Assembly: GCA_015179125.1 (NCBI GenBank) | Contig: WHVA01000142.1 | Coordinates: 124,001-188,000, forward strand | Direction of reading: 5' to 3' | From: Gautieria morchelliformis | Taxonomy: Eukaryota; Basidiomycota; Agaricomycetes; Gomphales; Gomphaceae | DNA length: 64,000 nucleotides | Part shown: positions 42,470-47,210 of the stretch, in pieces | Layout: each line of letters begins with the position of its first letter | Position numbering within the stretch: the stretch's first letter is position 1 | The notes under the pieces: model-generated | Seen by the model: only the letters and a program-made list of their open reading frames with translations | Databases searched by the model: none | What the model was told of the DNA's origin: nothing | Position numbers and translations under genes: made by a program

Positions 42470-44560
42470 GCTTAATAGAAGTGTAATATTATATGCTCAT
42501 ATATGCTGTATCACATGACCTTTTTGATTAACCTCCCAGGGGTAAAAGGAAGAACTGAGGAAAACTGAATGAACACGAGGGTTCCTGAGCGAGTGCCAAG
42601 GCTGAGGCCTCAGGACCGGACTTGGGAACAGGTCTTAACACTCCACTCCAATCATATACATATGCATACCCACCTTACAGGATTTCAACACAGAACACAT
42701 CCAGAGGACTGTGGGATTACCTCATCATTTTTTTTTTTGAATCTGGCGGTAAGGGGGCAATAAGGTAGACATGGTCTGACTTGTTTAATTTGACAACATG
42801 CCGAATTCAAACCTTGTGGACTCTGTTACTAGACTACTAGTAGTAATTTTGAATAATTTGCACTGATTCAACAATCAGATAAATTGATGATTAATAATTC
42901 CGAGTTTAAGTTCGTACATGCTTACCCAAGGTGAATTTTACCTGGGGCCACTGGCTTAGTAGTCGTCGCACCGGCTGCCTTGCCCCGTAGGTCTCACCAG
43001 TGATCCCGAACACACGCACGGGTCACTTGTCTCTTTCCCTTGTTTCCCTTTTGCTTCTGACTATTTGTGGTCTTGCCAGGGTTACGCGCTACCTGTTTGT
43101 TATTACTAATTAACGTGTTCCGCTGAGCACATCCTCGCACAGGCCTGAGTCCTGCTGGAGAGCGTCAGGATCGACTTCACCGATCGTCAGCGCGTTTCAG
43201 CGCTCACTCTGGCCCTTTTTTATATTGCTTCGCGCCTTCTTTCTTTCCTCGCTCGCTTGCGGCGCATTTCCACCTTCGCACAGGTATTTTTAGCAGTTTT
43301 AATTTCGGCGCGTCTTTAGTTTGCGCTTTCGCCGGCCCCCCTGCTCGCTCACTCGCAGCATCCCTGCATGCACGAATGCCTTTTCCCTACGGGGTTTTGT
43401 TAACGCCTCGCATCGTCGTCAGGTTCTCTTTCCGCGGTTTCTTCTTCTCTACATGAATTTACTCACAGCCCTCGGAAAAAGAAGTCCCCTGCCTCGCTTG
43501 GCGCTGGCGTCCCTTTATTTTTCTGCTCTAAGCCATTCCTCCCGCGTGAGGAATTCGTGTGATAATTGTAATAATTCTCACCCTGAAGTTGCAGAAAATG
43601 ACTGATAATCTCCGGGAGTAAAAGATGGACTAGAGAGCCCAGTGGTTATAGAAGAGTGGCATCCCCTACGTGATTGCTGTAATATCGCCGTACTGACGGA
43701 ATCCCCTAGTTTCAAGCGAGGAAACAATTTCCGAGCGCGCTAAAAGCTGCAACTTACCTTTGATCATCCAGCACCTTCGGACCGACCGGATTTGGCACAG
43801 TTAATTCACGCTTCTTATGCCTAACTCTAAAATGAATCTTCGAGGTAGCGTGGCGTTTGGCGGTCGAATCGGACCCTCGTGAGTTATCCAACAGTATACT
43901 TTGGACACGTCACTGGTGACCGTCTGCATCCGAGGTCCCTAGTGCTGTACCACGCTGACTCGGAGACACTCGTCAAGCTGAGGGTGTGAAAGCGTTACAG
44001 GTCATGGTGACTTCTTATGATGTAGATCTAAATGTGGCATATCGAAACGCAGTGCCCACGTACCCCATTTGCAGACGCCGGAACGGTTTCAAACAGCAGC
44101 AAATTCCGCTGGACCCGAGGAGCGACTCAAGGAGCGCTCTCGGCGAAGGATAATCGATAAGGAACGCCCGCCTGGCGAGGTACAAAGACGCCATTGACAA
44201 AGAACTGCAATGTGAGTGCGGCAAACGAGCCTGGAGCGCGAAACTAGCTGTGCAGAGAGCGCCACAAGGGAAGGGGCGCTTGAACGGAACGCGCCAGGTC
44301 ACGTGAGGTTGACGCAGTGCGGGGTGAGCAGCGGGTGTGGACTTCGTCGGGTTCCTACTTACATAAACTCTGATGAATGACGATGAAGTTCAGCATGCTG
44401 CAACGTTCAGCAGTTCATCCATTTATGAGGAAGCCGAGTCGCTATATTTCTCCTCGTATTGTTAATTAATTACAGACTAGTGAGTGTGCGAAGGCAGCCA
44501 CGAGAGTGTGGTAGAAGCCGTCGGCCGGGCGTCGTTTGGTTTCCTTATCCGAGTATGGTC
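42470..44560. other. Gene-poor stretch
   Basis: About 2 kb in which I find no gene I can support. Base composition shifts from AT-rich (42470-42950) to more GC-rich. A short open frame at 43321-43605 is Arg/Ser-rich without family signs. The stretch 43780-44300 holds frames on both strands with no consistent coding pattern. Confidence 0.45.
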
Positions 44561-44614
44561 TGTGCACGAAGTGGCGCAGTATAAAGGGAAAAGCTCCCAC
44601 AGCCCAATTTCTTC

Positions 44615-44790
44615 ATACTTACCTTGATGGCGCAGGTGCTTTCAAGTGCTGCGTTTGCGGGCTATGGGAGCTGACCATAGCACGGCGACACATTGTCCCC
44701 AGCCAGGTCTTGTAGCTTGTATGCGGTCTAGGCCGCATGCACCGTCTCAATATTTTCCTGTCCTGGTTCGCTCCTCGGAGTGGTCGGGCT
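44615..44790 (+). ncRNA. Structured small RNA, U1 snRNA candidate (canonical 5' end)
   Basis: The 5' end ATACTTACCTT is that of U1 snRNA, whose bases 3-10 (ACTTACCT) pair with 5' splice sites. Downstream the sequence folds into hairpins: CGCAG/CTGCG near 44632-44653, CTATGG/CCATAG (44662-44680) and ATGCGG/CCGCAT (about 44721-44738). An Sm-like site AATATTTTCC (about 44749-44758) follows, then a terminal hairpin (CCTGGTT...GGTCGGG) and a T run. A TATA box (44579-44586) lies 35 bases upstream, and GTGCACGAAGT at about -53 is shared with the second copy, resembling an snRNA promoter element. Against U1: the loop that binds U1-70K (GATCA-GAAG) is not evident. Size (about 176) fits. Confidence 0.5.
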
Positions 44791-45084
44791 CCTTTTTTTT
44801 TGGCCCTTTCGCAATCCTAACCCTAACCTAAGTTGTACATAAGCTACCTACGTAAGCTACCTAATGGAGTTCAACAATTATTTCGGACCCCTCTTGTACG
44901 TCTGAGACCCCTTGTTCAGCTCTACATAATGACCATAACATCACGTGTAGACTTGAGCATATAAGGCCCACTGGAACAGACGAATCGTCAGATATCATAT
45001 AGCTTGTTTCGACGACGGCACCAAGCCCCCATTATCGATTGATTATCCTCCCACCATCGTCACTACTGCAGTCTATACACGAGC

Positions 45085-46386
45085 ATGGGGGCCAGTAGGC
45101 TACCACAGGAGCTTATCGATGCTGTTACCGATAATCTCCATGAGGACCATGGTGCTTTACTGGCGTGTTCGCTAGTTTGCCGTTCATGGCTTCCCTCGAG
45201 CCAACGCCATCTTTTCTGGCGGGTAACTTTTGCTCTGGACAAGGATCGCTGCGAGCAACTGGCTCAAGGTTTACTCAATTCTCCTCATCTTGCCAATTAC
45301 ATCCGAGAGCTGGAGATCCGAAAGCTGGACGTGCGCGTGGCTGGAAACCATTGGACCAGGGAACGGGGATTCGATCCAAATCAATCACTCCCGGCGGCGG
45401 CGTTACGCAAGTTCAGGAAGCTCCAGAGCATACATCTATACAATCTGGACATGGATGATTTGACAGTAGACCTCCGCCAATCGCTTCGATGGGTACTCCT
45501 GCTACCCTCGCTCACGTCCCTGAAGCACCGTATTGGTCAAGATGAAAACAGCAACTTTGTGAGCCTTGCATGTCACGCTGAAAGTCTAATGGTTATATTG
45601 AGAACTTGTGTCATTTTTCCGTCGTGGCAGCTTCAGGACCTCTTGACGCGAGGAGATCAAGAGGATGATGAACCACGGGAGCGGAGTTACCTTTCTCACC
45701 TGGATTTAGAGTTGTCGAGGAAAGGCAACCTTGGCCTACATGTTGACTGGTTTCTTGGACCTCGTTCGCCTTTTGAAGTATCGCATATACAGAATTTGCG
45801 CGTAGCTTGTCTCGACAAGAAGGACGAGGAAGCTTTAAACCGCCTGTTTCGCACCATTGGCGGCTCACTCAAACAAGTCGAATTTTCTGTACCATATCGG
45901 CCATATAACGGTGGGCTGGGTGAGTGACCACCTATTTTGAACTCAAATGTAGTTGTTTAACTTTATACCTTGGTGTTTCTAGACCCAGAGCTAGCATTCG
46001 ACGTCAAACTGGAATATAACTCGAATATTCGCTTCCTATCCTTGACTGATGTCGCTATTGACGCAGTGGACTCGGGACCGTTCGGGACGGCCTGGTTTTG
46101 GCTTCAGCGGTTCCTTTCTAATTTTGACGCTTCTAACAAAATAGAACAGATCTATCTCGAAGTGATAATTTATGACACTGACGCGTTTAGGGAATTTGTG
46201 TACTCAGCTGCTGTTTGGGGCCAAGTAGACTGCATTCTTGCAGAAAAGTTTCGGAAACTGGAGAAGCTGGACATAAATGCATTGTTGATGGCCCCGGAGT
46301 ACGGTGAGATTAAGGAAAGTATTCTTGACGGGCTTCCAATGTTAGACAGGCGAGGTGTGTCTGTGACGGTGGATAGATATTGGTAG
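45085..46386 (+). CDS. F-box protein
   Basis: Predicted SCF ubiquitin-ligase adaptor. The N-terminus is a good F-box: LPQELIDAVTDNLHEDHGAL, then CSLVCRSWLPSSQRHLFWRV (residues about 6-48). The rest has loosely repeated Leu-rich segments (LRKFRKLQSIHLYNLDMDDL, LLPSLTSLKH, YLSHLDLEL), in the style of large basidiomycete F-box families. One intron, 45920-45982 (GTGAGTGACC to TTTCTAG), joins GGL to DPELAFDVKLEYN in phase. It ends SVTVDRYW with a stop at 46384-46386; about 412 residues. It is not closely similar to the tandem copies at 10-18 kb. It sits between two copies of the U1-like RNA gene, so the 2 kb block may have spread as a unit. Confidence 0.8.
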
Positions 46387-46692
46387 ATACAGCCGCGGCC
46401 CAAAGCCATAAGAAAATATCAGACTCCTAAGAGTATGAAACTGTTAAAAGTATGAAAAATATTGGCTGCCGCGCGCTGTTGGGCGCTGGTTGCAACGATC
46501 ACGGTCACGCTTGGATGACCGTATACCCCTGTCACATGATGAATACAGACGTCTGGCAAGTTATGGCGAATGAGAACATGCAGACATGGCTAAGGAATTT
46601 CCAGTGCAGTTCGTAGCCTGTGAGAATGTTGCAATTTTTGTGCACGAAGTTGGCTAGTATAAAGAGAAAAGCTCCCACAGTCTAATTCTTTC

Positions 46693-46858
46693 ATACTTGC
46701 CTTGATGGCGCAGGTGCTTTCAAGTGTTGCGTTTGCGGGCTATGGGAGCTGACCATAGCATGGCGACACATTGTCCTCAGCCAGGTCTTTTAGCTTGTAT
46801 GCGGTCTAGGCCGCATGCACCGTCTAAATATTTTCCTGTCCTGGTTCGGAGTGGCCGG
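46693..46858 (+). ncRNA. Structured small RNA, U1 snRNA candidate (variant 5' end)
   Basis: Second copy of the RNA at 44615, more than 90% alike by eye, with the same TATA box (about 46658) and GTGCACGAAGT element. The 5' end reads ATACTTGCCTT: base 7 is G instead of A, within the splice-site pairing segment. Such an RNA would pair perfectly with AG|GCAAGT donors and by G-U wobble with GTAAGT. Changes elsewhere tend to keep pairing (GTGCTGCG to GTGTTGCG in hairpin 1; six bases lost from the terminal hairpin, leaving a shorter stem). It may be functional, or a decaying duplicate. Confidence 0.45.
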
Positions 46859-47210
46859 CCTTTTTTTTTTGGCGCTTTCGCAGTCCTAACCCTAACCTAA
46901 GTTGTACATAAGCGGCGTCTAACACAGGCTAGACATTGGGTGGGCGTAACGTACAGTATGCATTCGACTTATCAGATCGGAATCAACCAGTATTATTTCG
47001 GGTTGTGAGTACATTCGCCGCGAGCTAGACTAACTGCATGGAAATAATGGGTCTATGCAACACAGCTAGCAAGCAGAGCGACAAAAAGTGATGATACCTT
47101 AATGAGAGTCTAAGTCCCTGATGTAAAGATAATGCTGATGAGTCCCTTCGCGGCAATACACACAAATAGATAAAGATATCCAGAATCAAACATAGAATCA
47201 AACAGATATG

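Follow-up and report, generated by a model that had tools for sequence, protein, structure and literature searches.

A Probable U1 snRNA Gene Family in Gautieria morchelliformis With a Probably Decaying Paralogue and a Telomere-Repeat Box Downstream

Two U1-Like Genes and Their Relatives in the Genome

The window analyzed is a stretch of 64,000 nucleotides (C163:124001-188000) from the 122-Mb genome of G. morchelliformis, which is assembled in 1113 contigs. It contains, on the forward strand, two copies of a homologous unit (44561-44844 and 46639-46913) with 90.5% identity over the 285 columns of their direct alignment. The gene of copy 1 (44615-44790), which matches the Rfam U1 model and folds into the consensus cloverleaf, starts with ATACTTACC, and that of copy 2 (46693-46860), probably a decaying paralogue, starts with ATACTTGCC. 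Both are preceded by TGTGCAC at position -54 and by TATAAA at position -35 (44580-44585 and 46658-46663). The places of the two copies, the spacing of TGTGCAC and TATA, and the difference at base 7, which is A in copy 1 (44621) and G in copy 2 (46699), agree by coordinates with the original prediction.

In copy 1, the arm that pairs with 5′ splice sites (ACTTACCT, bases 3-10) is located at 44617-44624, and it is followed by the 5′ strand of helix H (GATGG, 44626-44630; partner CCGTC, 44742-44746), the Sm-like site AATATTTTCC (44749-44758), stem-loop 4 (SL4, 44762-44788) and an oligo-T (44793-44801). A telomere-repeat box, CTAACCCTAACC, lies exactly 15 nt beyond the oligo-T (44817-44828). Copy 2 keeps only a remnant of SL4 (46840-46858), followed by its own oligo-T (46861-46870) and the same box (46886-46897).

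An F-box-like gene is placed between the two copies (Pfam F-box-like, E 1.2e-4, 22.2 bits against a cut-off of 24.3). It adjoins copy 1 (45009-46188), and a relative with 92% identity over 1181 columns also adjoins the U1 gene of C583 (L003).

A DNA search of the genome returned 14 family matches, counted as 13 loci, and for this reason the family is not a product of chance. These loci are the window pair, its counterpart pair on C369, and C583, C792, C200, C69, C655, C450, C349a, C349b and C859. The C369 pair duplicates the window pair almost exactly (99.9% identity over 3.0 kb), representing either another haplotype or assembly redundancy, and it is left out of the locus counts below unless named. 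A second genome search with the divergent C859 as query gave 12 matches and no new locus, and no relatives were found in the viral contigs with one exact pattern. An insertion of ~0.9 kb that has inverted end sequences divides the U1 gene of C450 in two (L014). The pattern GTGCACG-N38-67-ATACTTNCC matched 10 times in the genome, eight of which belong to the family (reversed control, 2); the two matches of core plus ATACTTNCC outside the family were not U1-like by eye.

U1 Identity of the Family

Copy 1 is highly likely to be a genuine U1 snRNA gene: it combines the AUACUUACC 5′ end with a cloverleaf supported by paired changes across the paralogues, with SL4 and an Sm-like site, and with a promoter element common to U2 and U4 genes. 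The original prediction had recognized that both copies start as U1 does and had doubted their identity, which is now well supported by the end-to-end Rfam match, the cloverleaf and the shared promoter element. Among the ten loci with a 5′ end, AUACUUACC is exact in eight, the exceptions being copy 2 (ATACTTGCC) and C859 (TTCCTTACC). Similarly, ATACTTACC is unchanged in 8 of the 10, while other parts of the gene vary.

Positions 1-166 of the Rfam U1 model (RF00003) align to 44615-44789 with 22.9 bits (E 3.3e-4, query of 196 bases). The match is weak, and it runs exactly from the AUACUUACC start to where SL4 ends. Its score is below the gathering cut-off of 69.5 bits, which is a database threshold and no biological feature. 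The covariance search proposed with the original prediction thus aligned copy 1 from end to end but with a low score. At Rfam's own cut-off no match was obtained in the whole window, and U1 was absent from the matches of a 2700-base search up to E 5. RF00003 run over the genome also returned nothing, with 41 of 1867 candidates scored; since it missed the window copies too, this result has little weight. Such U1 genes are easily missed, because copy 1 is far below the Rfam threshold and the genome-wide U1 family search was empty; the alignment, the structure and the promoter rule given here aid their annotation.

The RNAalifold consensus of eight copies shows the U1 layout, that is, helix H, SL1, SL2, SL3, an open Sm stretch and SL4, with helix H formed by GAUGG and CCGUC and the latter located directly 5′ of the Sm-like stretch. 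Tested on the same few related sequences from which it was derived, the consensus pairs in 97.4% of 427 cells, compared with 37-44% in slid controls, and both-sided changes are found in 5 of its 54 pairs; none of 500 shuffles was as high in either measure. One measure does not favor the structure: further pair types numbered 19, and the shuffles gave 20.3.

Compared with RF00003, copy 1 is alike in its 5′ arm, helix H, SL1-SL3 cloverleaf, Sm-like site, SL4 and full-length model match. It is unlike in its score, its SL1 loop, the sequence of its Sm-like site (AATATTTTCC) and the downstream series of oligo-T, 15 nt and CTAACCCTAACC. The family loop is UUUCANGUG instead of GAUCANGAAG, the consensus SL1 loop bound by U1-70K; the canonical form is absent from SL1, in accordance with the remark in the original prediction that this loop was not obvious. 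UCAAG or UCAUG is present in the SL1 loop of all eight aligned copies. As for the protein, the U1-70K N-terminal family has one match in the genome (E 2.5e-19), and the exon behind it resembles RNA-binding domains, with human U1-70K among its matches though not at the top. The Sm-like site, AATATTTTCC or AATCTTTTCC, is in the correct position and is shortened in C655; the Sm site of U2 and U4 in this genome is AATTTTTG, unlike that of the U1 family.

Two structural alternatives were rejected. A stem formed with upstream bases, considered as a part of the RNA, is carried (by eye) only by copy 1, copy 2 and C583. A spliceosomal intron within U1 was discarded because the uninterrupted RNA folds as U1.

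Five loci, copy 1, C583, C792, C200 and C69, all carry the promoter element along with the arm, Sm-like site and SL4, and they probably supply the U1 of this fungus.

Promoter Element

The element upstream of the U1, U2 and U4 genes is GGYCYGTGCRC, represented in copy 1 by the PSE-like GGTCTGTGCAC (44557-44567). The original prediction rightly placed a promoter-like element before both copies; the element is longer than was then described, and copy 2 is without its left part. When anchored on the RNA starts, the full element was found upstream of 7 of 10 U1 copies (the others being copy 2, C655 and C859), 11 of the 12 U2 loci read out of 20 found, and 7 of 11 U4 loci. In those U1 and U2 copies with a TATA detected close to the start, it is located between -35 and -32.

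Upstream of U5 (L030 and L031) and U6 (L072 and L073), three of the four loci carry CGACAGGCTCRACCAAA, which is altered in L031 (by eye). This motif differs from the U1/U2/U4 element. Transcription of U1 by Pol III had been considered in view of the oligo-T, the absence of T5 within the gene and a stretch, TGGCGCAGGTG, that by eye resembles an A box. It was dropped because U1 has the element common to U2 and U4, whereas U6 and U5 share another.

The element also occurs outside snRNA genes. The core CCGTGCACG with a nearby TATA has 639 matches in the genome, some of them overlapping (reversed control, 14). Most of the first 100 listed belong to two sequence types, often 2.5-3.5 kb apart. Three stretches (L096, L097 and L098) were read and look like members of a large repeat family with GTGGTCCGTGCACGAC...GGTATAAAG, the element plus TATA of the snRNA genes; they had no Rfam or tRNA match of note. 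The element supports a promoter of the snRNA type and is no proof of U1.

Its occurrence in repeats, the Rfam score under the cut-off and the absence of the canonical U1-70K loop are what could be expected if the family were another Sm-class or repeat-derived RNA with a chance resemblance to U1 at its 5′ end. This origin is scarcely credible in view of the full-length Rfam alignment, the U1 cloverleaf with its paired changes and the retention of ATACTTACC amid variation elsewhere in the gene. Moreover, no other U1 was found in the genome: the canonical arm with a 70K-like loop gave 16 pattern matches (reversed pattern, 8), none of which has a PSE core within 120 bases upstream. A clearly better U1 elsewhere, which the original prediction had named as evidence against itself, was therefore not returned by the pattern searches of the genome.

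Copy 2 and the Change at Base 7

The count of U1 genes and of their base 7 suggested with the original prediction gave 13 loci. Base 7 is A in nine of the ten loci with a 5′ end and G in copy 2 alone, to which only its C369 counterpart has to be added. The arm of copy 2, ACTTGCCT, is the exact complement of AGGCAAGT, and so the claim that it matches the GC-type donor AG|GCAAGT holds. By arithmetic, which is not evidence of use, G7 would give a U1 Watson-Crick pairing with GC donors and wobble pairing with GU donors.

The rest of the gene shows several defects. Homology of copy 2 with copy 1 begins at TGTGCACG (46639-46646), within the promoter element, and TTTT replaces the GGTC of copy 1. The promoter is therefore not intact, with GGYC missing and TATA kept. 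Seven nucleotides of the upper stem of SL4 have been lost, and the predicted folding energy of this stretch is -5.1 kcal/mol in copy 2 against -12.8 in copy 1. In SL2, a change of G to T turns a U-G pair into a U-U mismatch.

In silico, the probability that bases 3-10 remain open is 0.002 for copy 2 and 0.064 for copy 1, a weak test given the low value of copy 1 itself and the possibility that proteins override both predictions. The respective values are 0.77 for C583, 0.87 for C792, 0.91 for C200, 0.80 for C69 and 0.91 for C655. With A in place of G7, the value for copy 2 rises only to 0.063, and with G7 that of copy 1 falls to 0.0006; in these models, therefore, G7 worsens the predicted sequestration of the arm.

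Among copy 1, copy 2 and C583, eight gene substitutions occur in one of the three alone, six of them in copy 2 and two in copy 1. One of the six is the same base as in C69, and copy 2 also has two gaps. The unique substitutions of copy 2, copy 1 and C583 are 11, 1 and 0 in the 5′ flank, and 5, 1 and 5 in the 3′ flank, respectively. Since the branch of copy 2 is long in the flanks too, the gene count alone is no proof of relaxed constraint. As a point against decay, the gene of copy 2 diverged less than its flanks (6/168 against 16/119 sites, Fisher p 0.003), also when the first six flank columns are removed (12/113, p 0.02), and thus it may have been constrained during part of its history. TATA, the right part of the element, the helix H bases, the Sm-like site, the oligo-T and the telomere-repeat box are all retained, which likewise speaks against decay.

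The best account, with a probability of roughly three in four, is that copy 1 is a member of the U1 family and copy 2 a decaying duplicate that gives little or no working snRNP, its A7G change being drift. To an observed sequence, family, set of paired changes, promoter truncation and deletion, this account adds presumed transcription, presumed assembly and a presumed lack of function. Copy 1 would be transcribed, as a member of the dispersed family, from the PSE-like element and TATA, and its RNA would fold as U1 and offer AUACUUACC to 5′ splice sites. Copy 2 would be a nearby duplicate of the unit, probably born with the promoter element already reduced to its right part; it would also have lost the SL4 upper stem, a pair in SL2 and the A at base 7, which is now G. 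Most likely it yields little or no working U1 snRNP. The grounds for decay are the truncated element, the loss in SL4, the broken SL2 pair, the six unique gene substitutions with the two gaps, and the arm sequestered in silico.

The truncated element, the damage to SL4 and SL2 and the sequestered arm stand against the proposal of the original prediction that copy 2 could favor GC-AG introns, as an expressed variant in which C at +2 would be paired by G7. Apart from the base itself, with the exact complementarity that it creates, nothing was found to support such a preference, and the nine other loci keep A7; the slower divergence of the gene body relative to its flanks would nevertheless suit an expressed variant. 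GC donors are also spliced by ordinary U1. For the copepod Eurytemora affinis, Frey and Pucker (2020, PMC7072748) proposed a possible role in GA-AG introns for a U1 altered at base 8. They also report this alteration from a human U1 gene whose annotation is that of a pseudogene, and the copepod case is a fair precedent for both readings, service to GC donors and decay. Copy 2 is like variant U1 genes and U1 pseudogenes, such as the human vU1 genes and the E. affinis U1 (PMC7072748), in being a paralogue with an altered base in the 5′ splice-site arm. It is unlike them in that the base is the seventh, the host is a fungus, and half of the promoter element and the SL4 upper stem are lost. On balance, a role of copy 2 in GC-AG splicing is highly improbable.

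Less improbable, though still unlikely, is that copy 2 is expressed with no special preference, its snRNP binding GU donors through G-U wobble or acting outside splicing. This would fit the promoter parts, H bases, Sm-like site and 3′ signals that have been retained, as well as the slower change of the gene; the SL4 deletion, the broken SL2 pair and the predicted closure of the arm speak for decay instead. For multicopy U1 families this is a warning that decay, and not innovation, may well lie behind an altered splice-site arm.

A Bipartite Element at the 3′ End

All 11 loci with a 3′ end show an oligo-T (7-16 T), exactly 15 nt, and then the telomere-repeat box. The oligo-T of C450 reads TTGTTTTT. 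The box is exact in 10 of the 11, and C349b has CTAACCTTGACC. Over the whole genome, T7-N14-16-CTAACCCTAACC has 11 matches, all of which are U1 loci (nine of the 11 with a 3′ end, C450 and C349b being missed, plus the C369 pair), and the reversed control has none. In 27 U2, U4, U5 and U6 loci of ~3 kb each, CTAACCCTAA was absent from either strand.

The presence of the box in the copies is explained by descent. However, between the divergent C859 and the other loci the 15-nt spacer is on average 35% identical and the box 98%, and a box constant beside a diverged spacer suggests function. We tentatively propose, at somewhat short of even odds, that a bipartite 3′ element closes these U1 genes and that a telomere-repeat-binding factor there stops the polymerase or sets the U1 3′ end, perhaps by acting as a roadblock at the box. 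We know of no telomere-type DNA in such a role in snRNA genes. If the box is a real 3′ signal, telomere-binding factors would be linked to snRNA biogenesis. Among the features described here, the box most merits further work.

Introns in U2 and U4 Genes

The U2 genes (L018-L028) carry an intron of spliceosomal type (49-56 nt, GT...CTAAC...CAG) between CTGGCCTTTTG and GCTTAGATCAAG, which is present in 11 of the 12 loci read out of 20 found. U2 introns are known from Rhodotorula hasegawae. In PMC5832005, U3 and U6 are the two named as often interrupted. Our literature searches found nothing on U1 snRNA together with Agaricomycetes, and nothing joining U1 snRNA, basidiomycete, intron and snRNA genes; earlier publications on the A7G change, the 3′ box or the U4 intron may nevertheless exist.

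In the U4 loci (L032-L042), an intron-like stretch is located between ATCTCTTGTG and CTCGGGCATGTACTG and is clean in 3 of the 11 (L034-L036). L033 also contains such a stretch, with the exon one base shorter. L032 is uninterrupted, and the remaining six fit neither form cleanly.
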